A stretch of DNA of 35,054 nt, taken from the IMG/VR virus record IMGVR_UViG_3300042478_002514, positions 1 through 35,054 of that record; one strand, written 5' to 3'. Numbering within the stretch: the stretch's first letter is position 1; every line of letters begins with the position of its first letter. A program made the translations under genes and the position numbers. The DNA is from a virus. Shown piece after piece: positions 1 to 27,234 of the stretch. The notes beneath the pieces were generated by a model that saw only the letters and a list, made by a program, of their open reading frames with translations, was not told the DNA's origin and made no database searches.

Positions 1-3000
1 GAATGCTTGACTGTAGATACCTGTATAATTGCCAGAGAACGCACCTGTAAAGGCTTGACTGTATATGCCCGAATAAGCGCCTGTGAACTGACCCGTATAT
101 GATCCTGTAAAAAATCTACTGAAGACTTGTGAATAACTTCCAGTGAAAAATCCTACATATGGTCCCGAAAACGTACCGGTATAATCAAAAGTAAAGTTTC
201 TTGTGAATGCTTGGTTATATGTACCACTAAATGCTTGGCTGTATATGCCGGTGTAATTACCTGTAAATGATTGTTGGTACGTACCTTGGAACACGCCTGT
301 GAAGTTGCCTTGGTAGGCACCGGCATACGTGCCTGCATATCCACCTGTAAATGTACCTGTAAACTGTGTTGAGTATGCTCCAGTAAAGGTGCCAGTATAC
401 CCACCTGTGTAGATACCTGTGTAAATACCTGTAAACGCTCCTGTGTATCCGCCCGAATACAACCCTGAGAAGTTTCCTAGAAAACTCCCACCATATCCGC
501 CTGCGTATATCCCACTGAATGCACCTGTAAATAACGTTGAGTATATCCCTGTAAATTGACCTGTGTAAACACCCGTATATACACCGGAATATGTGCCCGA
601 GAACACACGTGTGTAGCCACCAATAAAACTTCCAGTGAAATTCCCTTGATAGCTTCCAACATAAGCGCCTGCATATACACCAGTAAATGTGCCGGTATAT
701 CCGCCTGAATAATTTCCTGTGAAGTTGCCCTGATACCCTCCTACATAACTACCAGCATATATTCCCGAAAATGTTCCTGTATATCCACCTGAATAATTTC
801 CTGTGAAGTTGCCTTGGAAGTTGCCAACATAAGCACCAGCATATATTCCAGTAAATGCACCTGTGTAGCCACCAGAGTAGTTACCTGTGAAATTGCCTTG
901 GAAGTTGCCAACATAAGCACCGGCATATATTCCAGTAAATGCACCCGTGTAGCCACCGGAATATAATCCCGAAAATACTCTTGAATATGTGCCTGCAAAA
1001 CTACCCGTAAATGTTTGATTAAATGTACCAACATAGGAACCCACATATATTCCAGTATACGCACCTGTGTAGCTACCAGTGAATAATCTACTATAGGCAC
1101 CTGAATAAAATCCAGTGAAAGAACTTTCATAACTACCTAAAAAAGCGCCTGTAAATGTCTGATTATAAGACCCTGAATATGTCCCTGCATACCCACCTGT
1201 AAACGTTTGCTGATATGTACCCGAGTAAGAACCGGTAAATGTTTGTTGATATACACCAGCGAATGCACCTGTAAATGTCTGGTTAAATGCTCCTGAGTAT
1301 GTACCAGCATAAGCGCCAGAATAGTATCCAATATATCCACCTGAATACGTACCCGTAAAGGTTTGTTGATATACACCGGCGAATGCACCTGTAAATGTCT
1401 GGTTAAATGCTCCTGAGTATGTACCAGCATAAGCGCCAGAATAATAGCCTGTATATCCGCCTGCGTAAGTACCTGTAAATGTTTGAGCATATGCCCCTGC
1501 AAATGCACCCGTAAATGTCTGGTTAAATGAGCCCGAATACGTTCCAGCATATGCCCCAGAATAATAGCCTGTATATCCGCCTGCGTAAGTACCTGTAAAT
1601 GTTTGAGCATATGCCCCTGCATATGCACCTGTAAATGTTTGATTGAATGCACCCGAATATGTACCAGCATAGGCGCCAGAATAATAGCCTGTATATCCGC
1701 CTGCGTAAGTACCTGTAAATGTTTGAGCATATGCCCCTGCATATGCACCTGTAAATGTTTGTGCATATGCTCCTGCATATGTTCCTGAGAAGTTGCCTTG
1801 ATAATTGCCGGAATATATTCCTGTGAAAGTCTGTGCATATGCACCCGCATATGTTCCGGAAAAGTTGCCTTGGTAATTGCCGGAGTATATTCCAGTAAAC
1901 GTCTGTGCATATGATCCTGCATATATCCCGGAGAAGTTGCCTTGGTAGTTGCCCGAGTACGTACCCGTAAATAATCTACTATACGTACCAGCAAAAGTAC
2001 CTGTGAAGTTACCCTGATAGGATCCTGCATAAGCGCCAGAATACTGCCCAGTAAACAATCTACTATACGTACCCGCAAAACTTCCTGTAAAGTTGCCTTG
2101 ATAAGATCCTGCATAGGACCCTGTCCATGTTGCTGTGAACACCCGAGCAAACGCTCCCGTAAAATCACCAGTATATGATCCTGAATAAAAGCCTGTAAAT
2201 AGCCTACTATATGAGGCGCCAAACACACCTACATAAGAACCCCCATAGGTACCCGCGAAAAAACCTGGACCAGCAAATGGCCCCGTAAAAGTTAAAATGA
2301 CGTAAGGATCTTGATAAACGCCTGTATATGCCCCTGTGAACAAACGCGTGAACGCTCCCTGATAAGTTCCTGTAAAAAAATTAATGTAAAAACCAGTGTA
2401 ATAACCAGTGAAATATATTCCAGTGAATGGGTTTTGGTACGATCCTGCATAAACTCCAATAAAGGCCCGAGCGTAAGCTCCAGCAAATGTTGGTGTGAAT
2501 GTATTATTGAAGCTACCTGCATATGACCCTATGAACCCTCTTTGATAAGTCCCGATGAAGACCCGCGTGAACCCACGAGAGTATGATCCTGTATATAAAC
2601 CCGTAAACAATCGACTATACGTACCAGCAAAAGCACCTGTAAAGTTACCCTGAAAGTTTCCGGAATATAATCCTGTATAGCTGCCAGTAAATAATCTACT
2701 ATATGTACCTGAATAGAGCCCCGTGAAATTGCCTTGATAACTTCCAGAGTATGTACCTGTAAATAATCTACTATATGTACCACCATATATTCCTGTAAAG
2801 TAACCAACATACCCACCCGCGTAGGCGCCTGTGAATAATCTACTATACGTACCGCCATATATTCCTGTGAAGTACCCAATATATCCACCCGCGTAGGCAC
2901 CTGTGAATAACCTACTGTACGTGCCACCATATATTCCTGTAAAGTATCCAACATAACCACCTGAATATATGCCTGTAAAGTATCCGACATAACCACCTGA

Positions 3001-5802
3001 ATACAAACCCGTATACGTTCCGGCGTATGTTCCAGTATATGATCCAGTATATGATCCTGAGAAAGCTCTTGTATACCCACCAGAGTATATTCCAGTAAAA
3101 TACCCCACATACCCACCAGCATATATGCCTGTATACGTTCCTACGTATGTTCCAGTATATGATCCAGTGTATGATCCCGAGAAAGCTCTCGTGTATCCGC
3201 CTGAGTATATGCCCGTAAAATACCCCACATATCCACCAGCATATATGCCTGTATACGTTCCGGCGTATGTTCCAGTATATGATCCAGTGTATGATCCCGA
3301 GAAAGCCCTCGTGTATCCGCCTGAGTATATGCCCGTAAACGATCCGACATACCCACCTGAATACAAACCTGTGTACGTTCCGGCGTATGTTCCAGTATAT
3401 GATCCAGTGTATGATCCCGAGAAAGCTCTCGTGTATCCGCCTGAGTAAATACCTGTGAAAGAACCTACATACCCACCGGAGTACAAACCCGTGAAGGAGC
3501 CTACGTACCCGCCCGAATAAATTCCTGTGTAAGCTCCTGTGAATGCACGTGTGTACCCACCCGAATACGAACCTATAAATAATCTACTATATGTTCCTGC
3601 AAATGAACCAGTAAAGTTTCCCTGGTAATTTCCTACATATGAACCTGCATAAATTCCTGTGTAAGCGCCTGTGTATGAACCGGAAAAAGCACCTGTGTAT
3701 CCACCAGCAAACGAACCAGTAAACGACCCGGCATAATTTCCTACAAACGCACCTGTAAATACTTGATTGTATATGCCAGTGTAATTACCTGTATAGCTTC
3801 CCGTGAATAATCTACTGTAAGTGCCTGCGAAGGTACCTGTGAATATTTGATTGTATATGCCTGTGTAATTGCCTGTATAGCTTCCTGTGAATAATCTACT
3901 ATATGTTCCCGCAAAAGTACCTGTAAAAACTTGGTTATATAATCCCGTGTAATTACCGGTATAGCTACCCGAAAATACTTGGCTATATGTTCCAGCAAAC
4001 GTTCCTGTAAATACTTGGTTATATAATCCTGTGTAGTTACCTGTGTAGCTTCCCGTGAATAAACTGCTGTATGTTCCTGCAAAAGCTCCCGTAAATGTTT
4101 GCTGATAGTTACCAACATAATTACCAACAAAGTTACCTGTGAAAGCCTGATTAAAAATACCCGTGAATGCACCTGTAAACGCTTGGCTGTATATACCAGT
4201 GTAGTTGCCTGTGTATATTGCAGAGAACAGGCTACTGTAAGTACCTGCAAATGTGCCCGTAAATACTTGGTTAAACGTTCCTGCATAACCACCAGCGAAC
4301 GTACCTGTAAACACTTGATTGAATTGACCAGTAAAGGCACCGGTGAAGTTCTGACTATATGCACCAGTATAAATACCTGTGTAGTCCCCTGTAAACAATC
4401 TACTATAGATAGCCGTATATGCGCCTGTGAATTTCCCCACGTAACTTCCTACATATACACCCGTGAAAGCGCCTGTGTATAAACCCGAAAACTGGCCTGT
4501 AAACGAACCGCTATATGCTGCTGTAAAGATTGAACTATATGCACCCGTAAATGCTTGAGCATAAGCACCGCTGAATGCACCTGTAAAGCCACCAACATAA
4601 TCACCAGTGAAATTTTGTTGATATGTCCCTAGATAAACACCACTGAACGCGCCAGTAAACTGCTGATTAAACGTCCCTACATATACACCAGTGAAGCTAC
4701 CCACATAAGGCGCCGAATATACACCAGTGAATGCACCTGTATATCCGCCCGTGTAAGCACCGGTAAATGTTCCTGTATAACCACCAGTATAAGCGCCAGT
4801 GAATTGTCCAGTGAACTGCTGATTAAACGTACCCGTGTACGTTGTTGCATATCCGCTAGAAAAAGCTCCGGTGAATTGCTGATTGAAAGCCCCGGTAAAC
4901 GTATCTGCGAATGTACCTGTGAATTCACGTGTGTATGGTATCCCATACAAACCAGTAAAACTACCTTGATACTTGCCAACAAAAGCCCGTGTATATACAC
5001 CAGAAAAAGTTGCTGTATACACTTGAGCATTATAAGTTTGAGGTCTTATTTCTTGACGGGTATCATTGAATCCCGTACCCGCCTCAACCCACGTTCCGCC
5101 TGATGACGGGGTGGTTGTGGATAATTGATAGGTGCCTATACCTGTATTGGCGATGTAATTTCTTGCTCTATGTGTCAAGGTTTTGATGTCGTTATTTGAC
5201 ATCTCACGTAAAGCATTAGTACTCCATTTCAAAGGCTTTATAGAGCCGCTTGGACTTTCAGACGTTTTTTGCCAGAGAAATGTTTCATTGGCAAAGTATG
5301 GACGTTCAGTATTCTGCAATCGCCCTCTCACAACCCACGTACCAGTTACTGGTGCAGACGGCTGCAGGACATATGAACCGACACCACCATTGACAATATA
5401 AGAAACGGCCTTCGCAATAATGGTTGTGTCAATATCCGTATTCGCCATTTGCTGTACGCCATCAAGCGTATCATTCCAGCAAATAGGTCGTACCATTGAA
5501 GGGTCCGTTAATGGTCCACCACCCAATCTTTGATAAATGGTTGTGTTTGAATAAACAAGATTCGCTTCTGAAACAGGATGGTCACCTATTTGTTGATCGT
5601 AGCGTGTATCAACCCATGTACCAATGGAGGTAGAATTTGCAGGAACCGGATCACCTGGATCCTGCACGATGAGAGATCCAATATCTTCTGTCGAAGCAAA
5701 ATCAGAACCTATTACATTTGAAATATATCCATCGATGTCCGTATTGGACATCTCCTGTAATCCGGATAACGATGTATTATAGTATAACGGACGAAGTGGC
5801 AT
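1..5802 (-). CDS. Giant aromatic-tetrapeptide-repeat fibre-like protein (3' end beyond window)
   Basis: The frame is open from an ATG at 5802 to the left edge, giving at least 1934 codons with no stop, so the C-terminus is not seen. The N-terminal ~255 residues hold three related modules (near residues 3, 102 and 187), each beginning with an Arg/Lys-Pro-hydrophobic motif followed by a signature like LQEMSNTDI and ending near a TGTWV motif. From about residue 257 to the edge the protein is almost entirely a four-residue repeat with Tyr, Phe or Trp at every fourth position, for example YTGTFTGAYS. In some tetrads Arg or Gln replaces Gly (YSQAF, YTRAF). About a quarter of the residues are aromatic; Cys, His, Met and Lys are rare. 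It starts 6 bases after the stop of its paralogue. Position at the end of a baseplate and fibre operon suggests an elongated virion fibre. I recall similar YTG/YSR-rich proteins in marine T4-like phages but know of no function. Confidence 0.85.
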   Translation of the reverse strand, partial: MPLRPLYYNTSLSGLQEMSNTDIDGYISNVIGSDFASTEDIGSLIVQDPGDPVPANSTSIGTWVDTRYDQQIGDHPVSEANLVYSNTTIYQRLGGGPLTDPSMVRPICWNDTLDGVQQMANTDIDTTIIAKAVSYIVNGGVGSYVLQPSAPVTGTWVVRGRLQNTERPYFANETFLWQKTSESPSGSIKPLKWSTNALREMSNNDIKTLTHRARNYIANTGIGTYQLSTTTPSSGGTWVEAGTGFNDTRQEIRPQTYNAQVYTATFSGVYTRAFVGKYQGSFTGLYGIPYTREFTGTFADTFTGAFNQQFTGAFSSGYATTYTGTFNQQFTGQFTGAYTGGYTGTFTGAYTGGYTGAFTGVYSAPYVGSFTGVYVGTFNQQFTGAFSGVYLGTYQQNFTGDYVGGFTGAFSGAYAQAFTGAYSSIFTAAYSGSFTGQFSGLYTGAFTGVYVGSYVGKFTGAYTAIYSRLFTGDYTGIYTGAYSQNFTGAFTGQFNQVFTGTFAGGYAGTFNQVFTGTFAGTYSSLFSAIYTGNYTGIYSQAFTGAFTGIFNQAFTGNFVGNYVGNYQQTFTGAFAGTYSSLFTGSYTGNYTGLYNQVFTGTFAGTYSQVFSGSYTGNYTGLYNQVFTGTFAGTYSRLFTGSYTGNYTGIYNQIFTGTFAGTYSRLFTGSYTGNYTGIYNQVFTGAFVGNYAGSFTGSFAGGYTGAFSGSYTGAYTGIYAGSYVGNYQGNFTGSFAGTYSRLFIGSYSGGYTRAFTGAYTGIYSGGYVGSFTGLYSGGYVGSFTGIYSGGYTRAFSGSYTGSYTGTYAGTYTGLYSGGYVGSFTGIYSGGYTRAFSGSYTGSYTGTYAGTYTGIYAGGYVGYFTGIYSGGYTRAFSGSYTGSYTGTYVGTYTGIYAGGYVGYFTGIYSGGYTRAFSGSYTGSYTGTYAGTYTGLYSGGYVGYFTGIYSGGYVGYFTGIYGGTYSRLFTGAYAGGYIGYFTGIYGGTYSRLFTGAYAGGYVGYFTGIYGGTYSRLFTGTYSGSYQGNFTGLYSGTYSRLFTGSYTGLYSGNFQGNFTGAFAGTYSRLFTGLYTGSYSRGFTRVFIGTYQRGFIGSYAGSFNNTFTPTFAGAYARAFIGVYAGSYQNPFTGIYFTGYYTGFYINFFTGTYQGAFTRLFTGAYTGVYQDPYVILTFTGPFAGPGFFAGTYGGSYVGVFGASYSRLFTGFYSGSYTGDFTGAFARVFTATWTGSYAGSYQGNFTGSFAGTYSRLFTGQYSGAYAGSYQGNFTGTFAGTYSRLFTGTYSGNYQGNFSGIYAGSYAQTFTGIYSGNYQGNFSGTYAGAYAQTFTGIYSGNYQGNFSGTYAGAYAQTFTGAYAGAYAQTFTGTYAGGYTGYYSGAYAGTYSGAFNQTFTGAYAGAYAQTFTGTYAGGYTGYYSGAYAGTYSGSFNQTFTGAFAGAYAQTFTGTYAGGYTGYYSGAYAGTYSGAFNQTFTGAFAGVYQQTFTGTYSGGYIGYYSGAYAGTYSGAFNQTFTGAFAGVYQQTFTGSYSGTYQQTFTGGYAGTYSGSYNQTFTGAFLGSYESSFTGFYSGAYSRLFTGSYTGAYTGIYVGSYVGTFNQTFTGSFAGTYSRVFSGLYSGGYTGAFTGIYAGAYVGNFQGNFTGNYSGGYTGAFTGIYAGAYVGNFQGNFTGNYSGGYTGTFSGIYAGSYVGGYQGNFTGNYSGGYTGTFTGVYAGAYVGSYQGNFTGSFIGGYTRVFSGTYSGVYTGVYTGQFTGIYSTLFTGAFSGIYAGGYGGSFLGNFSGLYSGGYTGAFTGIYTGIYTGGYTGTFTGAYSTQFTGTFTGGYAGTYAGAYQGNFTGVFQGTYQQSFTGNYTGIYSQAFSGTYNQAFTRNFTFDYTGTFSGPYVGFFTGSYSQVFSRFFTGSYTGQFTGAYSGIYSQAFTGAFSGNYTGIYSQAF
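1261..1770. repeat. 120-bp tandem repeat block in the giant fibre gene
   Basis: Units of exactly 120 bp (40 codons, ten tetrads). Bases 1441-1500, 1561-1620 and 1681-1740 are identical over 60 bases, and 1261-1320 is identical to 1381-1440. Identical third-codon positions indicate recent duplication or ongoing gene conversion. Confidence 0.92.
2762..2977. repeat. 72-bp tandem repeat block in the giant fibre gene
   Basis: Three units begin near 2762, 2834 and 2906, a 72-bp period (24 codons, six tetrads). Each encodes a tetrad string containing YSRLFTGAYAGG and YFTGIYGG-type segments. Copies differ mainly at synonymous positions. Confidence 0.8.
3001..3480. repeat. Second 120-bp tandem repeat block in the giant fibre gene
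   Basis: Four units begin near 3001, 3121, 3241 and 3361. Blocks 3141-3180, 3261-3300 and 3381-3420 are nearly identical. Each unit encodes ten tetrads with one Arg tetrad (YTRAFSGSYTG). Confidence 0.9.
3758..4093. repeat. 84-bp tandem repeat block in the giant fibre gene
   Basis: Four units begin at 3758, 3842, 3926 and 4010, exactly 84 bp apart (28 codons, seven tetrads). Each has one tetrad of the YNQVF type and most have one of the YSRLF type. Confidence 0.85.
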
Positions 5803-5808
5803 TTTTTC

Positions 5809-8800
5809 TCAAGCTGTTCTAACCCATAATGTATATGTAGTCGTCGTCGTTGTACCGGTGACGGTTAGACCCGAGTATGCCCCTGTAAATAATCGTGTAA
5901 AATTATTAGCATAGTTACCACTGAAAGCACCCGTATATGCTCCAGAATATGAGCCAGTGAACAAACCAGTATATGCACCCGTAAATATACGTGAATATGT
6001 CCCAACATAACTACCTGTAAAGTTACCAATAAAAACGCCTGTGAACGCGCCGGTATATAAACCAGTGAATATACGGCTGTATACTCCTGTCCACTGACCA
6101 ATAAACCCGCCCGTGTAGTTACCAGCGTATGTACCAGAAAATGCTCGTGTATAACCGCCCGTGTACGTCCCAGCAAAGGTAGCTGTGTAGTTGCCGCTGA
6201 ATGTACCCGTATATGCGCCTGTAAAATTTCGTGAATACGCACCAGAATATACACCCGTCCACGTAGCCGTGTATGCCCCTGTGAACGTGCCTGTGTATAT
6301 ACCAGTAAAGTTTTGTGAATACGATCCGGTGTAAGAACCTGTCCAAGTGGATGTATACGCACCCGTAAATGTTCCTACATAGTTACCAGAAAAGTTTTGT
6401 GAGTATGAACCTACATATGAACCTGTCCAGGTTGATGTATAAGCACCAGTAAATACCGCGGTATATCCGCCTGTAAACTGTCCTGTGAATACTCTTGAGT
6501 AGGTACCGGTCCACGTAGCCGTATATCCACCAGTAAAGGTCCCTGTATACGAACCGGTAAAGTTTTGTGAGTACGCACCGGTATAGGATCCTGACCAAGT
6601 AGCCGTATAGTCACCCGTGAACGCCCTAGTATAGCCACCAGTAAATTGTCCTGTGTAACTGCCTGCCCACGTATTTGCATATAACCCAACAAACCCACCC
6701 GTGTATGTAATTACACCAGTATAAGCTCCCGAAAAAACCCTGGAATATGTACTCGTGTAAGACCCTGTCCAAAAATTAACATACCCACCAGTGTAATTAG
6801 TACTAAAACCCCCCGTCCAATCACCAGTAAATATTCTTGACCAACTATTCTCATATGATCCCTGATATGGGGCTGAGAACTCTCTACTGAATGTTCCTTC
6901 ATACGATCCAATGTAGTTTTGGAGATATTCACCTGTAAATGCTCTTGAGTATGTACCAGCATACAGTGATGTCCAGCTTGATACAAATACGTTCGTCCAC
7001 GCTCTCAAAAAGGCCTGCGTATATAAACCCGAATAAAATCCCTGGAATGTCGTTTGATAACTAGCGCCAAAATTACCTTGGTAATTGCCAACGTACGATC
7101 CTGTAAAATAACCTGTACCAGCAAATGGCCCCGTAAATGATGTTATTGTATAGGGGTCTTGGTATGTACCAGCATAACTACCGGCAAATATACGTGAGAA
7201 AGCACCTTCATACGTACCCGTGAAAAAGCTGTTATATGTGCCCTGATATGTACCTGTATAATACGTGATGTTGAAAGGCCCAGTAAATCCACCTGCTATG
7301 TAATCCCCATCGTAGGAGCCTACAGAAGGAAGTGCATACGATCCTTGAAACGATGGTGTGAAAGCTCGTGTGTAGTTACCTGTATAAGTTCCTGCATACG
7401 TTGAAGTGTACGCGGCCACGAAAAAGGAGGAGAAGCCTCTTGAGAATGTTGAACCATATAGGCCTACAAAGCCACGTGTGTAGTTACCAATCCAAGCGCC
7501 TGTATATGTTCCTGTGAAAAGTCGCGCAAAGGCCTTCGTATATGCACCAGTATAATCGCCCGTATATGCAGCAGTATAGGATCCCGTCCACGCTCTTGAA
7601 AATATTCGAGACCACGTATTTGCATATGCCCCTGAATATGTGTTCTGATATGAACCTGTATATGCTCTTGAAAAGTCCCCAACATATCCACCAGCGTACG
7701 TGGCACTGAACGCCTGTGAGTAGGTCCCGGCATAATTATTTACAAATCCACCGGTAAAACTTTGATTATACGTACCGGCAAAGGTTTGATTGTAGCTACC
7801 TGAATATGTTATACCTTGAAAATTCCCAGCATATGGTCTTGAAAATGATCCTGCGTATACACCTATGAAAGTCTGATTGTAACCGCCTGAATATGTTACG
7901 CCCTGGAAATCCCCTGAGTATTGAGCTGTAAACGTTTGATTGTATGTTCCAGCAAACGTCTGATTATACCCACCAGGATATATTGTACCCTGATAAGAAC
8001 CAGAATATGGTCCCGTGAATGTTCCCACATACGTACCGGCAAAAGTCTGATTATATCCACCCGAATATGTTATACCTTGGAAGTTCCCAGCATATGGTCT
8101 TGAAAACGCCCCTACATATACGCCAGTAAAATTTTGATTGAATCCGCCTGAATATGTTACGCCCTGGAAATTTCCTGAATATGGTCCTGTAAATGTTCCC
8201 ACATACGTACCAGCAAAAGTCTGGTTGAAGCCGCCAGTAAAAGTAGAGCCTTGATAACTTCCCAAATATCCACCGGAGAATACCTGTGAGTATGCACCCG
8301 CAAATAAACCTGTGTAATTACCTGTATATGTGTTCTGATAAACACCCGTAAACGAGGTGTTTGTATCACGAGTAAAAATACGTGAATAGATACCTGTAAA
8401 ATTTTGCTGATACACACCTGCAAATGCACCAGTAAATTTAGAAGTATCAATAAAGTTACCTGTAAATGCCCGATTAAACTGTCCCTGATAAGCTCCTGTG
8501 AATGCTTGATTATAAATGCCACTGAACGCACCTGTAAAAGTACCCAAGTAACTACCGGAATATGATTGATCCTCTATACCATTCTGTGTATCTGTGAAAG
8601 AACCACGAGCTACCCAAGTACCAGGCGTTGGTGATGTAGTCGATATTTGATATCTACCAATACCAGCCGCAATACAATCACGTATAGCCGCTGTCATTGT
8701 GTCAATTTCAGCATCGGACATCTCTGTAAGAGCGTTCGCTGTACCTTTTAAAGGCCTCTTTGTACCATACCCACTATTCGTAGAGCGCTGATACAAATTA

Positions 8801-9357
8801 TATGTGGTTGTTTGCGTGCTATTGCTTGTCGAGTTAACAAAAGTATCGTTTATTGAGGATACAACAATCCACGTACCTGTTCCTGGTGGTGAAGTTCCAA
8901 GCCAGTAAGCTCCTTGTGCCCCAACAGATATTTCAGCAATAACTTTACTATGAATATCATCTCTGATTTCATTGTTTGAAAACTGTTGAATCTTTTGAAC
9001 ACCACCACTTGCCTCTGTTTTAACAGGTTTGGTTATAAGATCAAAGTTTGTTGTCAATGCAGTGTCAAGATTTTGGTACAACGTGTATGTTGTTGACGAA
9101 GAAGTTACTGGATGTGTCCCGATGGGCGGTAAAGCTGTTGGAAACACATCAAGAACAGTCCCACCAGTAACATAATTCCAAGTTGGTGGTGTAGTTCTTA
9201 GTTCGAGTTTGTTACCGTAGCCAGATGTATTTGATGCAGCGTAAAATAAGTTGGTTATCCTAGGAATAACAAGGTCATTGATGTCGCTATCCGACATCTC
9301 CTGAACACCGTCACTTGTACTTGCTGTAACATATCTTGCTCTAAGTGGTCTTGCCAT
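5809..9357 (-). CDS. Aromatic-tetrapeptide-repeat fibre-like protein, paralogue of the downstream giant
   Basis: This 1182-aa protein has the same plan as the downstream giant. The N-terminus carries three ~65-80-residue modules, with signatures GVQEMSDSDIN near residue 17, GVQKIQQFSNNEI near 118 and ALTEMSDAEID near 208. Residues ~264-1160 are aromatic tetrads (YTGTFTGAYTATWTG type), and the short C-terminal tail is Thr-rich (TGTTTTTTYTLWVRTA). Two supra-repeats are visible: a 29-residue unit containing FQGVTYSGG and a 28-residue unit with a TWTG tetrad once per unit. The start follows the previous gene's stop after one base, and an AGGA sequence lies about 8 bases before the ATG. Inference: a structural, probably fibrous, virion protein, perhaps assembling with or in place of the downstream paralogue. 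No enzymatic motif or signal peptide is seen. Confidence 0.85.
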   Translation of the reverse strand: MARPLRARYVTASTSDGVQEMSDSDINDLVIPRITNLFYAASNTSGYGNKLELRTTPPTWNYVTGGTVLDVFPTALPPIGTHPVTSSSTTYTLYQNLDTALTTNFDLITKPVKTEASGGVQKIQQFSNNEIRDDIHSKVIAEISVGAQGAYWLGTSPPGTGTWIVVSSINDTFVNSTSNSTQTTTYNLYQRSTNSGYGTKRPLKGTANALTEMSDAEIDTMTAAIRDCIAAGIGRYQISTTSPTPGTWVARGSFTDTQNGIEDQSYSGSYLGTFTGAFSGIYNQAFTGAYQGQFNRAFTGNFIDTSKFTGAFAGVYQQNFTGIYSRIFTRDTNTSFTGVYQNTYTGNYTGLFAGAYSQVFSGGYLGSYQGSTFTGGFNQTFAGTYVGTFTGPYSGNFQGVTYSGGFNQNFTGVYVGAFSRPYAGNFQGITYSGGYNQTFAGTYVGTFTGPYSGSYQGTIYPGGYNQTFAGTYNQTFTAQYSGDFQGVTYSGGYNQTFIGVYAGSFSRPYAGNFQGITYSGSYNQTFAGTYNQSFTGGFVNNYAGTYSQAFSATYAGGYVGDFSRAYTGSYQNTYSGAYANTWSRIFSRAWTGSYTAAYTGDYTGAYTKAFARLFTGTYTGAWIGNYTRGFVGLYGSTFSRGFSSFFVAAYTSTYAGTYTGNYTRAFTPSFQGSYALPSVGSYDGDYIAGGFTGPFNITYYTGTYQGTYNSFFTGTYEGAFSRIFAGSYAGTYQDPYTITSFTGPFAGTGYFTGSYVGNYQGNFGASYQTTFQGFYSGLYTQAFLRAWTNVFVSSWTSLYAGTYSRAFTGEYLQNYIGSYEGTFSREFSAPYQGSYENSWSRIFTGDWTGGFSTNYTGGYVNFWTGSYTSTYSRVFSGAYTGVITYTGGFVGLYANTWAGSYTGQFTGGYTRAFTGDYTATWSGSYTGAYSQNFTGSYTGTFTGGYTATWTGTYSRVFTGQFTGGYTAVFTGAYTSTWTGSYVGSYSQNFSGNYVGTFTGAYTSTWTGSYTGSYSQNFTGIYTGTFTGAYTATWTGVYSGAYSRNFTGAYTGTFSGNYTATFAGTYTGGYTRAFSGTYAGNYTGGFIGQWTGVYSRIFTGLYTGAFTGVFIGNFTGSYVGTYSRIFTGAYTGLFTGSYSGAYTGAFSGNYANNFTRLFTGAYSGLTVTGTTTTTTYTLWVRTA
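6175..6678. repeat. 84-bp tandem repeat block in the 1182-aa gene
   Basis: The landmark aromatic codon of the TATWTG/TATFAG tetrad recurs at 6175, 6259, 6343, 6427, 6511 and 6595, exactly 84 bp apart. The unit is 28 residues, seven tetrads, the same length as a block in the downstream paralogue. Confidence 0.85.
7770..8291. repeat. 87-bp tandem repeat block in the 1182-aa gene
   Basis: A landmark codon in the FQGVTYSGG segment recurs at 7811, 7898, 7985, 8072, 8159 and 8246, exactly 87 bp apart. The unit is 29 residues: seven tetrads plus one extra residue, so each unit shifts the aromatic register by one. Outer limits are approximate. Confidence 0.85.
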
Positions 9358-9358
9358 T

Positions 9359-11152
9359 TCATGGTCCTAGCCGCGTACCGCTTACATCGTAAATCCCAAA
9401 ATTTCCTGCATGTGCAACATTACCAGTTTTATACTTTAGCTCAGTTTGATTAAAAGCTAGAACAGATGTGGTTGTTGTTCCGTTTGCTGCCTGGAAAATA
9501 AAACCACCATCACTTGCTGTTGCGTTCGCTTCGTATGTAGTAAACGTCGTACGTGTATTTGTTGTGTTACCGGCTATTGTAATAGACGCATTATGTGTTG
9601 CGTTTGACGATAGGAAACGAATAGCTGCACTTAAACCAGTAAGTACAGTATTACCTGATATAGTTATTAGATCGGTTGAGCTTGGTGATGTGTTCTTGAA
9701 TCCAATTCTGTTGTTTACTGCATCAATGAAAAGCAAATCTGTGTCAAATGTTGCGTTACCCGAAACAACAAGTGTATTTGATAGTGTCGTTGCACCAGTA
9801 ACAGCAAGCGTGTTTGACAGGGTCGCATTACCTGTTACGGATATTGTGTTTGAAAATGTTGCTGCTCCAGTAACACCTAACGTACTAGCTAGCGTTACTG
9901 CACCGTTTACAACAGCGGTCCCTAATACACGTAAAGAGCCAACGTTAGCTAATCCTAACGAACTATCAATATTACCATTCGTTGATAGAACAATTCGTTG
10001 GGGTGTAAGAGTATGTCCAACTTCACTAACACTGGCGGTTAGATTTATGACTGATCCACCATACGACGAGGATAACTTGAATGCAGTTGAATTCGCCTCA
10101 ACCACGTAGTAACTTGTTCCATTTGCAAGACCTGTTACAGCTGTATTACCAGTCGATACAATGTACTGAACCAGATCACCATTACTAAAGCCATGTGCTG
10201 CCGTTGTGGTGATGAACTCCGTCGTGTTTGCAACACCCGTCAATGCATTGAAGGCTGCAGCTGCTCCAACTACATTGGCAGCGCTACGTAAGGTTGTGAT
10301 ACCGGCAATATTAATAGTGTTTGAAAAAGTGGTATTACCTGTAACCGCTAACGTATTAGAAAACGTCACATTACCAGTTACAGCTAATGTGTTCGATAGA
10401 ACGACGTTACCAGTTACAGCCAGTGTATTTGATAAGGTCGTATTACCAGTTACGATTAAACTATTAGAGAGAGATGTATTACCAGTAACAGCTAGCGTGT
10501 TCGAAAGAGTGGTGTTTCCTGTTACAGAAAGAGTATTGGAAAGTGTTGTCGCTCCTGTAACAGTAAGGGTTGTGGATACTGTTGCAAACCCTGTTATGGA
10601 TGTATTACCTGTAGCTAGAGTATTGGCAATAGTTACAGCACCGTTTACAACCAACGTACTTCTTAACGACGTGGCACCACCGATATTTGCTGTTGATGAT
10701 ACATTAACAAACCCTGTTATAGTTGTATTATTAGCAGCCAGTGTACCTGTTATGGATGTATTACCTGTAGCTAGAGTATTGGCAATAGTTACAGCACCAT
10801 TTACCGTTAGCGTGCCTCTCAATGTCGCTGCACCACCAATATTTGCTGTGGATGATACGTTGACGAAACCGGTTATTGTTGTATTACCTGTTGATAAGGT
10901 GTTAGTAACTGAAACACTGTCAACAAAACTACCGCCCATTGCGCTCAACGCCCAGCGCGATGTTGCGTTACCAAGTGAATAGGTGTTATTTAATGGAACC
11001 AGGCTACTTTGAAGATTTGCCGTAACAGAAAGATATGACCCGTTAATGTCAACGTTGGCATTGAACACTGCTGGTCCAGCAACATTTGCGGTACCTAAAA
11101 CAAGGAGACCATTTTCAACCTTGAATTGAACATTGCTTGACGTATCAGCCAT
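9359..11152 (-). CDS. Fibre-like structural protein with 12-residue repeats
   Basis: This 597-aa protein has a head of ~90 residues including an LGNATSRWALSA motif, the type seen in tail-fibre proteins. Two 52-residue near-duplicates follow (GFVNVSSTANIGG...LATGNTSITG), then a run of 12-residue repeats of the form LAVTGNVTFSNT (residues ~185-285). Residues ~300-382 form an inserted module (HGFSNGDLVQYIV...GNTAVTGLANGTSYYV) that also occurs in the gp7-like protein. A further short repeat run and a distinct C-terminal domain (~440-597) follow. A short period with alternating β-branched residues and Gly-Asn turns suggests a β-helical or β-spiral stalk; the C-terminal domain could be the tip. Lys and Cys are nearly absent from the repeats. 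A late-promoter-like box lies 86 bases upstream, and AAGG precedes the ATG by 6 bases. Receptor binding is only an inference. Confidence 0.85.
   Translation of the reverse strand: MADTSSNVQFKVENGLLVLGTANVAGPAVFNANVDINGSYLSVTANLQSSLVPLNNTYSLGNATSRWALSAMGGSFVDSVSVTNTLSTGNTTITGFVNVSSTANIGGAATLRGTLTVNGAVTIANTLATGNTSITGTLAANNTTITGFVNVSSTANIGGATSLRSTLVVNGAVTIANTLATGNTSITGFATVSTTLTVTGATTLSNTLSVTGNTTLSNTLAVTGNTSLSNSLIVTGNTTLSNTLAVTGNVVLSNTLAVTGNVTFSNTLAVTGNTTFSNTINIAGITTLRSAANVVGAAAAFNALTGVANTTEFITTTAAHGFSNGDLVQYIVSTGNTAVTGLANGTSYYVVEANSTAFKLSSSYGGSVINLTASVSEVGHTLTPQRIVLSTNGNIDSSLGLANVGSLRVLGTAVVNGAVTLASTLGVTGAATFSNTISVTGNATLSNTLAVTGATTLSNTLVVSGNATFDTDLLFIDAVNNRIGFKNTSPSSTDLITISGNTVLTGLSAAIRFLSSNATHNASITIAGNTTNTRTTFTTYEANATASDGGFIFQAANGTTTTSVLAFNQTELKYKTGNVAHAGNFGIYDVSGTRLGP
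10310..10570. repeat. 36-bp (12-residue) repeats in the 597-aa fibre gene
   Basis: About seven copies of the same 12-residue repeat as in the upstream gene, with a few more near 9770-9890. Confidence 0.8.
10593..10860. repeat. 156-bp duplication in the 597-aa fibre gene
   Basis: About 50 bases starting at 10593 recur identically from 10749, an offset of 156 bp (52 codons). They encode the VNGAVTIANTLATGNTSITG segment twice. The offset is in frame. Confidence 0.8.
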
Positions 11153-11160
11153 TACTTACC

Positions 11161-13233: not shown

Positions 13234-13447
13234 TTGTGTTTCCGTTAATTAACTGTTTAATTAAGTCTTTAAATTCATTCAAATCTTTTTTAAGATCATG
13301 CACACTATTTTCAAGTTGTTGCTGCCTTAGTATGAAGTCTCGTTCCGTTTTGAACCGTTCATATCCTGCCATATCAATATTTAGAACAGCTTTGGACAGA
13401 GGATCTCGAATATAATTAGAGTCGCTTGTATCTGGACGATATTTCAC
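13214..13447 (-). CDS. Small coiled-coil protein between structural genes
   Basis: This is a 77-aa protein starting with GTG at 13447, overlapping the previous stop by four bases (GTGA), and ending 20 bases inside the next gene. The N-terminal part reads YIRDPLSKAVLNIDMAGYER; the 'DP.SKA..N.D' pattern resembles small proteins I recall beside fibre genes in marine T4-like phages. Residues ~30-68 are rich in Gln, Glu, Lys and Leu with heptad-like spacing (QQQLENSVHDLKKDLNEFKD), which fits a coiled coil. The tail is polar (NGNTNGKTNS). The tight overlaps on both sides and the same strand argue for a real gene. Function is unknown; a chaperone or oligomerisation partner for the adjacent fibre would fit its place but is only inference. 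Confidence 0.75.
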   Translation of the reverse strand: MKYRPDTSDSNYIRDPLSKAVLNIDMAGYERFKTERDFILRQQQLENSVHDLKKDLNEFKDLIKQLINGNTNGKTNS

Positions 13448-15480: not shown

Positions 15481-15500
15481 TTATTACCTTTTATTATTAA

Positions 15501-15980
15501 TTACCATCCTTGAGGTTGATCGTATCCCGCGTCTGTAATAGGAGGAGGCGGCGGCGGTACATAGGGTTTGTTTATAGTCTCAAACTCATTATCTGACGGA
15601 ATAAAAACAGAAATTTGGATTTGTGTTGTAAAGAAAGAATCCGATGTATTTTCGTATCCTGCATCTAACGTAGACGAACCGATGTTGCTAACAATAATTT
15701 CCTTTGTACCTGCAATAGATGCAGCAAACCGTTGAGCTTCCGCAACAGTTGTCGCAGCGAGAGAAGCTCCACTTTGATAATAGAAGTCAAATGTTACAGA
15801 TCCGTTTTCATCGGTAATAATTGACTCGCCTAAATTTCCATTTAAAGGTTTTATTTGAGTTGTCGGAACAAGTTTACGTTCAAAAAAACAATAATGTCTT
15901 GTTAAAGGTCTCAGCCCATAGACTGTTACCGTAAAAACCTGGTCGCGGGTCGTAAAAAATAAATTTGTTTGTATTGCCAT
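15501..15980 (-). CDS. Small structural protein with polyproline tail
   Basis: This 159-aa protein has residues ~1-130 that look like one β-sandwich domain with alternating hydrophobic strands (QVFTVTVYGLRPLTRHYCFF, and a NGSVTFDFYY strand). This resembles an immunoglobulin-like or fibronectin-like fold, but no family is recognised. The C-terminus is a polyproline run (PYVPPPPPP) followed by ITDAGYDQPQGW. The upstream DUF4815 protein also ends in polyproline plus tryptophans, so the tails may share a docking role. It sits between two large structural genes with gaps of 13 and 20 bases. The ATG at 15980 is the only reasonable start. Confidence 0.75.
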   Translation of the reverse strand: MAIQTNLFFTTRDQVFTVTVYGLRPLTRHYCFFERKLVPTTQIKPLNGNLGESIITDENGSVTFDFYYQSGASLAATTVAEAQRFAASIAGTKEIIVSNIGSSTLDAGYENTSDSFFTTQIQISVFIPSDNEFETINKPYVPPPPPPITDAGYDQPQGW

Positions 15981-15993
15981 TTAACACTTATCC

Positions 15994-21789: not shown

Positions 21790-24700
21790 TTAAGTGTTCG
21801 AGGTTTCGATAGTATTTATAGCGGTCATTTCTAAGTTTGCCAGCGAAAGAGAAATAACTCTACCAAATGCTTTTGTTCCAGCTACGTGTGTAACTCTTTT
21901 CAAGACATCGAAATATCTATCAAACGGTACCTTTGTTTGTACTTCATAACTGTATTCCTGATAAAATTCACCATCCTGCAGTTTCTTATCATCACTTAAA
22001 AATCCTCTTGTAGAACCATAATATCCCTGCCCAACGCCTTGTTTACCAAGCTCAACAACAGCAGTCACGCTGAACGCTGAGTTAGACATCGTTAAAGTAA
22101 CTGGTTCACGATCAAGATATCCAAAACCCGAATCAGCAACAGCAAGTTTTTTCACAACATTATTCGCTGTTTGAACGTTGGCCTCTATTGATGCATTTAA
22201 ACCAACAGGCACAGCGTTTGCATCCTCAACAACACCAACAACGTTTGCTGTTGCACCGGATGAACGACCTATAATCGGATTACCATCGAGGAAGGTGTTT
22301 TCTAAATTGATACGCTTTAATTTGAGGACCGATGAGTTTGCTGATTTAACAAGTGCCCTAGCAGTAGTTGCAAGTGTTGTTGGCGTCACAAGTGTAACAT
22401 TAGATGTTGATCCTGACGACAACCCCTTCAGAGGGTAGGACGGCGCATTATTTACAAACGTGCCCGTTACATTTTTAATTTTTAATGTTCCAGAGCCAGC
22501 ACTTATTGCAGCTTCAACGACAAATCCAGATGCTGCTACGTTTGCTGTTGAATTACTTTGATATACAAACTCATTTATAACAAACGTTGAAGTCCCAACA
22601 CCGTTTGCAGCTGTGCCTGTGAATCCTGTAACGGTTAGTTGTGTTGCTACGTTGCTATATGACTGTTGTATCTGCTCACCAACAACAAATGCACCAACTG
22701 TATTGTTAATTTGCATAACATAATCACGACTGTCGTATCCAACAACAAACGTATCAACAACGGTTACAAACGGATCAACATTATAATCAGCTCCTGGGTT
22801 AATAGAAACCAACGAAGCTATAGATCCTATAGTGGTACTGTCAAAACGAAGAGCGTCAAGAAGAATCGTATCAAGATTTGTTCCAGGGAATTTGATAAAA
22901 CCAAGACCACGGAATATTTCTTCGCCTGAACCAACATTATCGTATGTTGAGTTTGCACCCGTAATTATTCTCAGAGGACCAAACAACGTGTGCCCCGATT
23001 CGGTTGGTCCTTTAAGGATATTAATACGTAGTCCTGTCGGTGAATCCTTCAACGTTATATGTGTTGCATTTGATTGATCGATATAATACACGGTGTTAGG
23101 TGTAAGGCCATCGATAGATGTGTTCGCTGCGCTTAGACTGTAATGCACAGCACTGTTCGGCAAATAATTGACAGCTGTGCTCAAGGCTATACTGTTATTT
23201 GATCCAGTTGTGGCCTGTCGTGTAAGTGAATGCCCAACTTCGTTGGCAGTGGCTGTTATGTCAATTGGCGAACCGCCAGAAGTAAGCGACAACTGTAACG
23301 TAGTTGATCCTGCAACTGCATTGACAATATAATAATTGGTGTTGTTTGCCAGGCCAGTAACAGCCGTGTTACCAGGTGTAACAAGATAGTTTACTTGCTC
23401 GTTGTTACTAAAGATGTGTTTAGCTGGCGAACTAATGGTAATAATATTAGTCGTGTTGTTAACACCTGATAAAGCATTGAATTCAACACGTGATGGTAAC
23501 AAAACGCCAGTACCATTTGCTCCTTCTGTAATATCCGTATTACCATTAAATGTAGCTGCCGTTCCATATCCACCAGCGGTAACATTAGAGCCAATACCGT
23601 TAAGTTTTATTTCGCTAAACTTCACATTACCTGTATTTTTTCCATCAATAAAGTCGGGTGATAGTAGGACACTCTCTGTATCCGTTAAAAGACCGATACT
23701 AAAACCAGCTCCTGATCCTGTACTTACGTTCGCCACAGAGGCTGTTGTGTTACTCGTCGACCCACGAATGTAGGTTTGAGCTGATGCAACGAATCCGTTG
23801 ACTGATATATCAACAACACCCACGAATCCTGTTGTGTGTGTTATGAAATGCCCATTTTCGCTTCTATTGCTTGCTGATATACCTAAAGGCGATCCACCTC
23901 TGGTAGCAGATAATTGGATAGTGGATGCAGTTGTGTTAACAACATAGTACTTTGTGGTATTAATTAGCCCATCGAGTTGTGTGTTACCTGCACTGACACT
24001 GTAAGAGATAACGTAATTGTTTTCAAGCTGATGGCTCGGTATTGTTATTGTGTCGCCAGCACTTGACACAGATGTTTGTGCATTGAAGGAGTAAACGAGC
24101 GTGGATGTATTTGAGCCATTAACATTACCTGTAGCTGTCCTATCCCCATAGAACGTAATGACAGCAGTACCCAAGGTACGTATCAGCCTGTGACCTGTTT
24201 CGTTTGACCCTCTGGTAAGGGATATTGGGGCACCACCAGGTGTATGAGACAAGTATAAGCTCGTTGAACCTGGTACAGCGTTTACTATGTAATATGCAGC
24301 ACCTATTGACAGCTCAGGAATGTATGTATTACCTGGCATGACATGGTAACGAACAATATCATTATTACTGAATTCATGTGCAGTTAATGTGTTTATTCGG
24401 GTGCTACCGCTACCTATAAAGAGACCCGTGTAGGCTGATCCAAAAGCACCTGTGAAAAATCCATAACTACCCGTGAACAGTGAGTCTTGATACGCTCCAC
24501 TGTAAGCACCATAGCTACCCGTATATGTTCGAGCCAGATACGTTCCTGTATACCCTATGTAAGCGCCTGTAAATTGACCACTATACGAACTTGTAAACGC
24601 ACCAGCAAGTGTTACGGTAAATGTTCTCGTGTAACCATTGAAAGCACTTGTATAATCAGAACCTGCATATAACCCTGTATATGCTTTGCTGAAATATTGA

Positions 24701-27234
24701 ACTATGACGCCGTTTGCTGTTCCTTGTGCGCTGGTGTAAGTTCTTGTAAAGATGCCTGTATACCCACCATACCCACTGGTGAATGAATTATTATATACGC
24801 CGCTAAAAGCTGAACTGTATCCACTAAATGACAGTGAGAAACTAAGGTATTGACCAGAAAAAGCATTGTAATTACCACTGAAAGCTAAACTATAGCTACC
24901 CGTGAATCCTGTGTATGCACCTGTAAATGCAGTAAATGCTTGCGAATACGTGCTCGTGTAAGCACCAGAAAAGACATTGTATAATCCTGTGTAGCTTGTT
25001 GTGTAGCTTGTTGTGAAGTTGCCTTGAAATGTTCGTGAAAAACTACCCACATAATCATTTGTGAACGTATCACTGTAAGTGCCTGTATATGCTGTTCCGT
25101 ACGAACCAGAAAAATTACCGGTAAATGTTGAGGTAAAGTTTCCTGTGAATGATCCGAGCTGATACAGTCCTGTGAAAATTCTCGAGAACGAATCACCACC
25201 ATATGCACCACTGTATATGGACGAATATGATGTAATATAGGCTCCGGTATATCCAGCTCCAACATAACCTTCTGTAACACCCGGAACACCACCATAAGGT
25301 AACGATTTCAAGCCCGTATAAACAGGATATGAAATAAAGCCACCCGTATAGGCCCTTGAGAAATTGCTTACATAATTAGGTAAGTTATAAGAGTTTACAT
25401 TTGCAGCAAACGTTGCTCCGCTATATGGATTTTGATACGCGGATTGATACACACCTTGATACCCACCTACATACGATCCCAGAAAATAGTTAATATATGT
25501 TGTGCTGTAAGGAATATTACCAAACGGAGTTACACGTGTACCAGTAAAGTACCCCACATATGATCCAGCATAAGACCCTGAGTAGGTACCCGTGTAAAAA
25601 CCAGGTACTAGCGTACCCTGAAATTCGCTGGTGAAGGTTCTAGTATAATTTCCTGTGTATGTCAGATTGTATAAGCCTGTGAAGCCTACAGCTGTATATG
25701 CACCGGTAAAGGCTGTTGTATAAGCAGACCCTGTGTATGGTGTTGTAACGATAAAATATTGTAGGTATGAACCGGAAAAGTTTGTTGTTCCACTAGTTGT
25801 AAACACCCTACTATAGGTACCTGTGTATACTTCGCTCGTAAATGTTTTAGAGTAATTGCCTAGGTAAGAATCGGAAGTGAAGACTCTGCTGTATGTGCTA
25901 GAATACCCTTGTGTATAAGTAGAACTGTATACCGTACCATATACGCCAGTATAATCAGAAGTGTATATCGAAGTGAATTCTTGAGAAAAACTACCCGTAA
26001 ATAGATTAGAGTATGTCTTACTATAAACAGATGTATAAGTATTTTCAGCAAATCCGATCGTTGATGGATTAAACGATGATTCATCGGGATCTTGTGATCT
26101 CACAGCAAATGTTGTGTCTTGAGCGGCTATATTACCAACATTGGGCACTACAATAATCCATCCAACGGCGTTTGTAGTTTTGCTTGTGACTGCTATAACA
26201 GCGTTAGCAACAACATCACCGTTAGAATTGTAATTCTCTATGATGTTACCAACATTGAAATGATAATTGTTCCCTCTCGCCGTACTATACCCAATATTAG
26301 CTAAGGGTTGTGTGACGGTTTCAAATTGACTGAAGTCGGTAATCAACCCATTGGCGTTAACAATGTTGGTGAGAGTTAGGACTTTATCCGATACGATAAC
26401 GTTTGCATGGTCAATGCTATATCCCCAACCACCACTTGTAAATGCATCAACATATATGAAAGTGACACGTCCGGTTTCATTTGAAACCTCAGTTACACGT
26501 GCTTTGCCTTGTTTACCGTTTGTTGATGTTACCTCAAAAATATCACCAACAGCAAAATTAGCACCACCATCGATTACGGTAAGTGAAGTCATTGAACCTA
26601 TTACAGTAGGCGCGTTTTCAAAGGATGTGTTTGATGTCGTCGTTATGAGCTCGCCGGTTTCAAAGTTACCTCTAACACTACTCAGATAAGCAACTTGTTG
26701 GTACTTGCCTGCAAGTCGTTTGGTTACAATACTTTCTAGAAATGCCTTAGCACCACTCCGTGAACCTACAATTTCCTGACCAACAAAACTTTGTGTTCTT
26801 TCTTTGACCGTCAGCTCGAGGTACGTGGGCTTAATCCAGACGCCGTCTGACGTTTTAAAAATATCTTGACCGGGAAAAACAACTCTTGATTCTTCATTGA
26901 AAAGTCCCTGAATTAGAAGCTGTACACCTCGTTCTGTTCCTTTGGCTTTGTAGATATCAAGAGCATGCTTAATAACGAGCTGTGTGTTTGCTTCCGTTGA
27001 AAGAGGTACGCCGGACAGGTATTTGTTCTTAAAATATTTTATGAAATCACTTGATGTACTATCAATATTTCGATAATCAAGTAAGTTACGCGAAGCGTTT
27101 AATGCTTCCCCTTCAGCCTCCATCCATCGATAGTATTCCTTAACAAAAGAAATAAAGCGAGGACCTTCATCCTGATAGAAGTCAGGAAATTGAGCTTTAA
27201 CAAGTGGGAATATTAACTCTTCGATCTGTCTCAT
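21790..27234 (-). CDS. gp7: gp7-like baseplate wedge protein with large repeat insertion
   Basis: This is a 1814-aa protein. Residues 1-~170 (FPDFYQDEGPRFISFVKEYY, then NLLDYRNIDSTSSDFIKYFK, then KAKGTERGVQLLIQGLF, then FVGQEIVGSRSG) parallel the C-terminal half of T4 gp7 as I remember it (a YSTKGIEASYKFLFKVLYNE stretch and LVGQTIYTATGR). The C-terminal ~60 residues (RYFDVLKRVTHVAGTKAFGR) match the end of that part. The N-terminal half of T4 gp7 is absent. Between these ends lie β-modules (~170-390), about 540 residues of aromatic tetrads (~397-940), four copies of an ~80-residue HxFSNxD/GNT module (~945-1418), and further 'F..GE' modules. T4 gp7 (1032 aa) is the main wedge scaffold. It overlaps the gp6 stop by four bases (ATGA), so translation is probably coupled. 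The gp7 assignment is strong by position and moderate by sequence. Confidence 0.85.
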   Translation of the reverse strand: MRQIEELIFPLVKAQFPDFYQDEGPRFISFVKEYYRWMEAEGEALNASRNLLDYRNIDSTSSDFIKYFKNKYLSGVPLSTEANTQLVIKHALDIYKAKGTERGVQLLIQGLFNEESRVVFPGQDIFKTSDGVWIKPTYLELTVKERTQSFVGQEIVGSRSGAKAFLESIVTKRLAGKYQQVAYLSSVRGNFETGELITTTSNTSFENAPTVIGSMTSLTVIDGGANFAVGDIFEVTSTNGKQGKARVTEVSNETGRVTFIYVDAFTSGGWGYSIDHANVIVSDKVLTLTNIVNANGLITDFSQFETVTQPLANIGYSTARGNNYHFNVGNIIENYNSNGDVVANAVIAVTSKTTNAVGWIIVVPNVGNIAAQDTTFAVRSQDPDESSFNPSTIGFAENTYTSVYSKTYSNLFTGSFSQEFTSIYTSDYTGVYGTVYSSTYTQGYSSTYSRVFTSDSYLGNYSKTFTSEVYTGTYSRVFTTSGTTNFSGSYLQYFIVTTPYTGSAYTTAFTGAYTAVGFTGLYNLTYTGNYTRTFTSEFQGTLVPGFYTGTYSGSYAGSYVGYFTGTRVTPFGNIPYSTTYINYFLGSYVGGYQGVYQSAYQNPYSGATFAANVNSYNLPNYVSNFSRAYTGGFISYPVYTGLKSLPYGGVPGVTEGYVGAGYTGAYITSYSSIYSGAYGGDSFSRIFTGLYQLGSFTGNFTSTFTGNFSGSYGTAYTGTYSDTFTNDYVGSFSRTFQGNFTTSYTTSYTGLYNVFSGAYTSTYSQAFTAFTGAYTGFTGSYSLAFSGNYNAFSGQYLSFSLSFSGYSSAFSGVYNNSFTSGYGGYTGIFTRTYTSAQGTANGVIVQYFSKAYTGLYAGSDYTSAFNGYTRTFTVTLAGAFTSSYSGQFTGAYIGYTGTYLARTYTGSYGAYSGAYQDSLFTGSYGFFTGAFGSAYTGLFIGSGSTRINTLTAHEFSNNDIVRYHVMPGNTYIPELSIGAAYYIVNAVPGSTSLYLSHTPGGAPISLTRGSNETGHRLIRTLGTAVITFYGDRTATGNVNGSNTSTLVYSFNAQTSVSSAGDTITIPSHQLENNYVISYSVSAGNTQLDGLINTTKYYVVNTTASTIQLSATRGGSPLGISASNRSENGHFITHTTGFVGVVDISVNGFVASAQTYIRGSTSNTTASVANVSTGSGAGFSIGLLTDTESVLLSPDFIDGKNTGNVKFSEIKLNGIGSNVTAGGYGTAATFNGNTDITEGANGTGVLLPSRVEFNALSGVNNTTNIITISSPAKHIFSNNEQVNYLVTPGNTAVTGLANNTNYYIVNAVAGSTTLQLSLTSGGSPIDITATANEVGHSLTRQATTGSNNSIALSTAVNYLPNSAVHYSLSAANTSIDGLTPNTVYYIDQSNATHITLKDSPTGLRINILKGPTESGHTLFGPLRIITGANSTYDNVGSGEEIFRGLGFIKFPGTNLDTILLDALRFDSTTIGSIASLVSINPGADYNVDPFVTVVDTFVVGYDSRDYVMQINNTVGAFVVGEQIQQSYSNVATQLTVTGFTGTAANGVGTSTFVINEFVYQSNSTANVAASGFVVEAAISAGSGTLKIKNVTGTFVNNAPSYPLKGLSSGSTSNVTLVTPTTLATTARALVKSANSSVLKLKRINLENTFLDGNPIIGRSSGATANVVGVVEDANAVPVGLNASIEANVQTANNVVKKLAVADSGFGYLDREPVTLTMSNSAFSVTAVVELGKQGVGQGYYGSTRGFLSDDKKLQDGEFYQEYSYEVQTKVPFDRYFDVLKRVTHVAGTKAFGRVISLSLANLEMTAINTIETSNT
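21813..21820 (-). promoter_or_regulatory. T4-type late promoter box before gp8
   Basis: On the minus strand the sequence reads TATAAATA inside CCGCTATAAATAC. It lies within the last codons of the gp7 gene, and the expected start point would give a leader of about 25 bases before the gp8 ATG at 21781. The same 13 bases occur before the 597-aa fibre gene. Confidence 0.5.

Follow-up and report, generated by a model that had tools for sequence, protein, structure and literature searches.

Paralogous candidate tail fibres of a marine T4-like phage whose aromatic ladder may form a giant beta hairpin

The long tail fibres of phage T4 measure 145 nm (PMC9603124). In T4 gp37, the stem (residues 882-931 and 960-1009) is inserted in the knob and is interrupted by the tip at residues 932-959 (Bartual et al. 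2010, summarised in PMC9603124). Both termini lie at the knob; the trimer, whose chains are interwoven, has a length of 20 nm and binds LPS and OmpC (PMC9603124).

Here we describe two genes, A and B, from a 35-kb IMG/VR virus record (IMGVR_UViG_3300042478_002514; all 35,054 nucleotides were analysed and are called the window). We conclude, with a probability of about 0.82, that A and B encode paralogous tail fibres in which a ladder of aromatic residues, inserted in the third of three N-terminal modules, folds as a giant antiparallel beta hairpin. We showed computationally that the ladder splits at its midpoint, that its arms match in length, that bulges are mirrored between them, that residues covary across the arms and, in AF2 models, that module 3 is closed by the far end of the protein.

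The minus strand of the window has the late-gene order of a T4-like myovirus: tail and baseplate proteins are followed by a gp6/gp7/gp8-like wedge cluster, two fibre-like proteins with a 12-residue repeat, gene B and then gene A (Table 1), the gene names other than that of the wedge being assigned by gene order and annotated relatives. The missing C-terminal end of gene A was supplied by contig L014 (L-labels denote the sequences carrying relatives, found by viral-contig scans), which overlaps the window by 1,476 bases with 1 mismatch. The joined protein has 2,142 aa, 1,934 aa of them inside the window, in agreement with the first-pass annotation of this DNA, which had put it at more than 1900 residues; its C-arm runs on in L014 to residue ~2122 and is followed by a C-terminal strand. 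Beyond the end of gene A, L014 carries fibre-like and then gp13/14/15-like genes. Genes A and B lie within the baseplate-to-neck cluster of a T4-like myovirus, as expected of phage tail fibres, and both phiM12 and Cr30 have tail-fibre or unassigned genes in the same wedge-to-neck interval. The B-A order recurs in L012, L013, L015, L020, L021 and L022.

Two neighbouring regions are worth recording in their own right. The adjacent proteins of 597 and 690 aa at 9359-13233 (minus strand) consist mostly of the 12-residue repeat S/T-N-T-L-x-V-T-G-N and match several PHROGs of unknown function and one structural-protein PHROG; they are a different repeat fibre in the same cluster as the ladder genes. 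On L014, between the ladder gene and the neck genes (2546-4637), ORFs resemble glycosyltransferase or oxygenase genes by eye.

Table 1. Parts of the ladder genes and of the wedge insertion, in window coordinates.
Feature	Position	Strand	Basis
Gene A, ladder protein	1..5802	-	Open frame and translation; open at window edge
Gene A, three tandem N-terminal modules 'QEMSNTDI ... GTW', residues 1-255	5038..5802	-	Alignments; AF2 of relatives L030 and L111
Gene A, N-arm, residues 262-1160	2323..5019	-	221 consecutive in-register aromatics at 262-1142
Gene A, turn/tip, motif YQDPY...FTGPFAG, residues 1161-1181	2260..2322	-	Mirror axis; shared motif
Gene A, C-arm, residues 1182-1934 in window	1..2259	-	214 in-register aromatics at 1182-2034, joined protein
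Gene B, paralogous ladder protein, 1,182 aa	5809..9357	-	Open frame; B-A order in relatives
Gene B, three N-terminal modules, residues 1-262	8572..9357	-	Alignment
Gene B, ladder, residues 266-1161	5875..8562	-	Autocorrelation 0.89; run lengths
Gene B, QDPY tip motif, residues 733-751	7105..7161	-	Motif match
Gene B, C-terminal strand, TVTGTTTTTTYTLWVRTA region	5812..5874	-	Should complete module 3 (C-terminal motif; AF2 of L030 and L111)
Wedge ladder insertion, ~residues 396-945	24400..26049	-	Inside gp7-like baseplate-wedge protein 21790-27234

The ladder of gene A starts at residue 257, and 26.2% of the 1,678 residues it covers are aromatic. Successive aromatics are exactly 4 residues apart in 397 of 438 steps, with a lag-4 autocorrelation of 0.94 compared to a shuffle maximum of 0.077. 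Across 418 tetrads, position 3 is Gly in 77.8%, Gln in 8.9% and Arg in 7.2%. This bears out the first-pass description of an aromatic four-residue ladder from residue 257 with Gly, Arg or Gln two positions later. The ladder is not uniform, being made of two arms with a break at the midpoint. Gene B carries the same ladder throughout, and the ladders of both window genes contain no His. TRF detected arrays of 36-240 bp inside gene A, whose copies differ at codon positions 1, 2 and 3 in 32, 16 and 167 places (five arrays summed); because these differences fall mostly at position 3, the protein sequence is under selection. On the opposite strand, an open frame with YVPVYDP repeats (3125-3448, plus strand) crosses the ladder, a shadow of the period-4 code that is not evidence of a gene.

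Viral-contig scans with gene A, an N-terminal alignment, a short-form alignment and a sister member as queries gave at least 106 unique complete relatives, which form 83 clusters at 90% identity; in the short-form scan, the best 80 of 227 related stretches were returned. The relatives were selected by a C-terminal ending such as TLWVRTA, so that its presence in 106 of 106 reflects the selection criterion. They share one architecture, in which three small modules at the N terminus are followed by the ladder and then by a C-terminal strand of 20 residues, and in some the ladder is very short (~85 aa). In the alignments, modules 1 and 2 finish with a strand like TTYTLYQR and module 3 does so without one; the C terminus of the protein resembles this missing last strand.

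Structure prediction, which had been proposed as a check on the repeat, was informative at the base of the ladder but not along it. AF2 monomer models of two natural short members, L030 (402 aa) and L111 (409 aa), gave a block pLDDT of 72-97 (mostly 84-97) for the modules and above 90 for the base of the ladder, while most of the ladder stayed below 50. Judging from strand boundaries, residues 236-256 of module 3 pair with C-terminal residues 372-400 in L030; in L111, residues 251-271 pair with 379-407 and 275-279 with 371-376. Because module 3 lacks its last strand and the C-terminal strand completes it, the models and alignments indicate that the ladder interrupts a beta hairpin, entering between the last two strands of module 3, where both of its ends meet. 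A stem that springs from a basal domain holding both termini was thus found in the two models and in the split module 3, and is assigned to the window protein by homology.

The lengths of the arms point the same way. In most members the largest break in the ladder lies at or near the midpoint, leaving two equal stem arms parted by a tip, as in gp37; arm, gap and arm measure 906, 14 and 941 in window A and, for example, 1043, 81 and 1036, 506, 114 and 491, or 65, 7 and 63 in others. Aromatics in the N- and C-arm number 6/5, 7/6, 8/7, 10/9, 12/11, 17/16, 22/21, 25/24, 34/34, 29/29, 97/96, 116/115, 123/123 and (outer run) 112/112, the N-arm being ahead by exactly one aromatic in the simplest short forms. 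Counts agreed within two in 17 of 17 proteins, which are related, non-independent and chosen for clear arms; permuting the arms never gave more than 11. Differences in length are also shared between the arms: from L026 to L030 (84% identical) either arm changes by 44 residues, and of the 346 residues that separate window A from its orthologue L012 A, 164 lie before and 172 after the shared tip motifs. The QDPY tip motif is common to window A, gene B, L012 and L013. In gene A the mirror axis has a sum of 2304-2312, corresponding to residue ~1152-1156, and the conserved QDPY turn region lies near 1155-1170.

Residues that face each other across the axis covary. When the axis runs base to base, an aromatic lies opposite 83% of the ladder aromatics of the N-arm, compared to 21% with displaced axes (47 clusters). 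Among 848 pairs from 14 equal-arm proteins, the association of Tyr and Phe reached G=504 one tetrad off the base-to-base axis; values at most other axes were 4-35, apart from satellite peaks of 74 and 111 at a distance of three tetrads. The Gly/Arg/Gln slot of the same pairs peaked at G=168, compared to 14-94 at other axes. Arg slots faced Arg slots in 29 R-R cells (R includes a few Lys) against ~5 expected from the margins. The spaced Arg tetrads had been taken as possible turn marks; they instead face each other across the arms above chance, and the turn is the QDPY region.

A free axis scan returned the base-to-base axis +4 or +8 for L021 A and B, L104 A, L120 A, L020 A, L015 A, window A, L012 A and the first N-arm part of L013 A; in the second N-arm part of L013 A, the axis is displaced by an insert. 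For the outer run of L041, the base-to-base axis was recovered through the Gly slot instead of Y/F. Homotypic rungs (Y-Y or F-F) made up 121/126 in L020 A, 155/170 in L012 A, 112/122 in L021 A, 90/96 in L104 A and 88/97 in L015 A. Single-protein axes were judged against a block-shuffle null. In window A, the axis sum of 2304 (turn ~1152) gave G=66.4, while block shuffling reached at most 25.0 and the best parallel match 17.7. A gapped match paired residues 274-1142 with 2030-1176, with 171 of 214 rungs alike and a score of 93.6 (null maximum 59.2). Gene B of the window did not have a significant mirror of its own (gapped score 21.7, null 95% 27.0); its orthologue L012 B did (27.9, null maximum 22.6). 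The gapped score of L041 (56.3) missed the null 95% of 58.9, and its run lengths and Gly slots do mirror. The register is fixed to about one tetrad: the covariation peak is at +4, and AF2 and the bulges favour the base-to-base axis (0). In L013 A (protein at 12398-18664), a 176-residue CBM_4_9-like insertion at residues 651-826 (E 0.003, below the cut-off) lies in one arm only, and the rungs go on matching to either side of it, as would be expected of a domain that loops out of the ribbon.

Given the genetic code, a reversed peptide pattern cannot arise when DNA is duplicated or inverted, and the mirror therefore argues for selection for antiparallel pairing as its natural cause. This bears on whether the ladder is folded at all. 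The TRF arrays and the low pLDDT of the ladder could be due to a low-complexity, mostly disordered or phase-separating tail-tip spacer, with a period left by slippage and tandem duplication. We regard this as highly improbable, given that the array copies differ mainly at third codon positions, that arms stay matched across 20 to 1,000 residues and that the 155 rungs of L012 A match in reverse.

We give equally little credence to the suggestion, made in the first-pass annotation, of a new solenoid or beta-spiral. A beta-solenoid or parallel beta-spiral, with the tetrads forming part of a coil and the mirror being incidental, would account for the perfect period, and a coil of ~13 residues could fit the secondary Y/F period of 3.1-3.3 tetrads. 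However, it predicts neither the midpoint break, the equal arms nor the mirror-image covariation; the parallel control was far weaker in window A (17.7 vs 66.4), and the AF2 models bring the N and C ends together in a single small domain. With equal arms, mirrored bulges and like-with-like rungs, the halves pair antiparallel.

The bulges supply a further mirror. Six-residue bulges lie at mirrored heights, with runs of 9, 5, 5, tip, 4, 5 and 9 in L075 and of 8, 5, 6, tip, 5, 5 and 8 in L084. Slips in the N-arm have a mirror partner within four residues in 58 of 108 cases (null mean 20.7, maximum 35), a count that takes in near-identical proteins. Where AKx and TSx bulges pair across the axis, the partners are of opposite type in 65 of 65 pairs, and this holds for proteins with differing motif orders too. 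Taken by itself, the order of these motifs is also compatible with an arm repeated directly, but the mirrored run lengths exclude such a repeat. In L086, L107, L111 and ~25 relatives, six-residue AKx and TSx bulges always face each other across the hairpin; it is possible that such pairs act as a register lock.

In the hairpin we propose, the N-terminal 255 residues would form three small alpha/beta modules that probably attach to the tail. The N-arm would run out to the turn/tip domain and the C-arm back, closed by the C-terminal strand, and every fourth residue of each arm, an aromatic, would face its like, giving Tyr-Tyr or Phe-Phe rungs with Gly/Arg/Gln slots between them. The Phe rungs would face the core of a helically twisted ribbon of ~13 residues per turn. 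A ribbon that presents the same face to the core every ~13 residues fits the A proteins, as their Phe rungs recur each 3.1-3.3 tetrads. By analogy with T4 gp37, three hairpins may associate into a six-stranded needle, whose tip, together with the lectin-like inserts of some relatives, would bind the host surface. With 0.30-0.34 nm per residue, the two arms (906 and 941 residues) predict a fibre of 270-320 nm, and the predicted length for gene B is roughly 120-160 nm. Window A would then probably be a very long receptor-seeking tail-fibre needle, and the earlier idea of a regular long fibre with aromatic rows is still the best reading.

The arms need not belong to the same chain. In a strand-swapped dimer or trimer, they would pair antiparallel between different chains, as the interwoven chains of T4 gp37, which twist round their neighbours (PMC9603124), might lead one to expect, and sequence covariation would be the same for intra- and inter-chain contacts. 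In the AF2 models a single chain closes the base, but this is the only outcome open to a monomer prediction. We consider inter-chain pairing the strongest of the alternatives, yet unlikely.

The ladder is also found in a third protein of the window. The protein at 21790-27234 (minus strand) matches phrog_17744, a baseplate wedge, with E 7e-161. Its flanks align to the gp7-like wedge proteins of phiM12, Cr30 and DLP6, whose N- and C-terminal parts are ~40% identical to it and which lack the ladder region. At 1,814 aa, this gp7-like protein has grown by the ladder and other inserts in its variable middle. Its ladder is less regular (lag-4 autocorrelation 0.55), and inspection of its run lengths revealed no clear symmetry.

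Hairpin fibres of this kind might also serve as head fibres, whiskers or tail-sheath decoration rather than as receptor-binding tail fibres, and the very short ladders of some relatives would suit such roles. This seems improbable to us, as the genes lie in the interval from baseplate to neck genes that holds the tail fibres of related phages, the same phage has a ladder inside its baseplate-wedge protein, and one orthologue (L013 A) carries the CBM-like insert.

The ladder proteins tested had no match among the PHROG models, and their Pfam matches all stayed below threshold and were compositional. Weak matches of the ladder to the Gly-zipper families PF13441/PF13488 were rejected as compositional (19.4 bits vs a Pfam cut-off of 28.9). 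Also set aside were an S-RIM2 match to gene A (low-complexity VTGN, no ladder), a Vibrio phage F23s1 match (octapeptide repeat, no ladder) and IgA1 protease 7uvk (a compositional match to a 20-residue YTG repeat without an aromatic ladder). Foldseek and VIA searches of the PDB with the AF2 models of L030 and L111, in which the ladder is poorly modelled, gave no significant match, nor did a search of BFVD with the first AF2 model; the best VIA rows, T4 gp11 (Z 2.4) and a KP1 baseplate protein (Z 2.0-2.2), were too weak to use. That no described fold is known to have this exact period, as had been remarked at the outset, is consistent with the lack of any sequence or profile match to a known fold, and in the literature we found nothing relevant on a period-4 aromatic fibre or on C48C1, a phage with a related protein (see below).

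The fibre class is already known; it is the ladder hairpin that is new and may be a new fold. We lean, with less assurance than for the hairpin itself, towards a helical antiparallel beta ribbon of up to ~1,000 residues per arm, its register written as like Tyr/Phe rungs and heterotypic bulges, making a fibre of at least 0.3 micrometre whose length is tunable by matched arm insertions, and thus an unseen fibre fold. To our knowledge, it would be the longest beta hairpin known. If true, the pairing of strands up to ~1,800 residues apart can be read from sequence like the base pairs of an RNA stem, and one chain, or three together, builds a fibre of 0.3 micrometre or more. It would also offer materials work a genetically length-tunable fibre. 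The hairpin is a testable model for a large marine phage fibre family missing from Pfam and PHROGs, and it poses a folding problem, namely how 220 near-identical rungs find the right register. It is tempting to speculate that the bulges and Y/F patterns are a register address code.

Among 50,697 annotated phage records searched with gene B and L030, the only family member was in phage C48C1 (Kyanoviridae, OQ984149; our L001), and three marine MAG contigs in GTDB genomes also carry one. The C48C1 protein (WJE88074.1, 3,347 aa, annotated as hypothetical; L001 13845-23888) likewise has three N-terminal modules, a ladder and a C-terminal TLYVR strand. It differs from the window proteins in that many aromatics are replaced by Arg, with a 12-residue sub-period, and several large inserted domains (~150-180 aa) stand between ladder stretches.

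Pfam, PHROGs and PDB profile searches gave no gp37 match for the ladder proteins. Compared to T4 gp37, the arms of window A are ~18 times longer, and the ladder has a period-4 aromatic/Gly code and no His, so that there are no His-coordinated iron sites; a trimer is suggested here by analogy. As in gp37, the stem is inserted in a knob or base domain, the chain runs out to a tip and back, the termini lie at the base, and the two arms are equal in length (50 + 50 residues in gp37), with extended strands. Given the lack of iron-site His and of detected homology, we do not class A and B as members of the gp37 group, but propose, by analogy, that they work like gp37.
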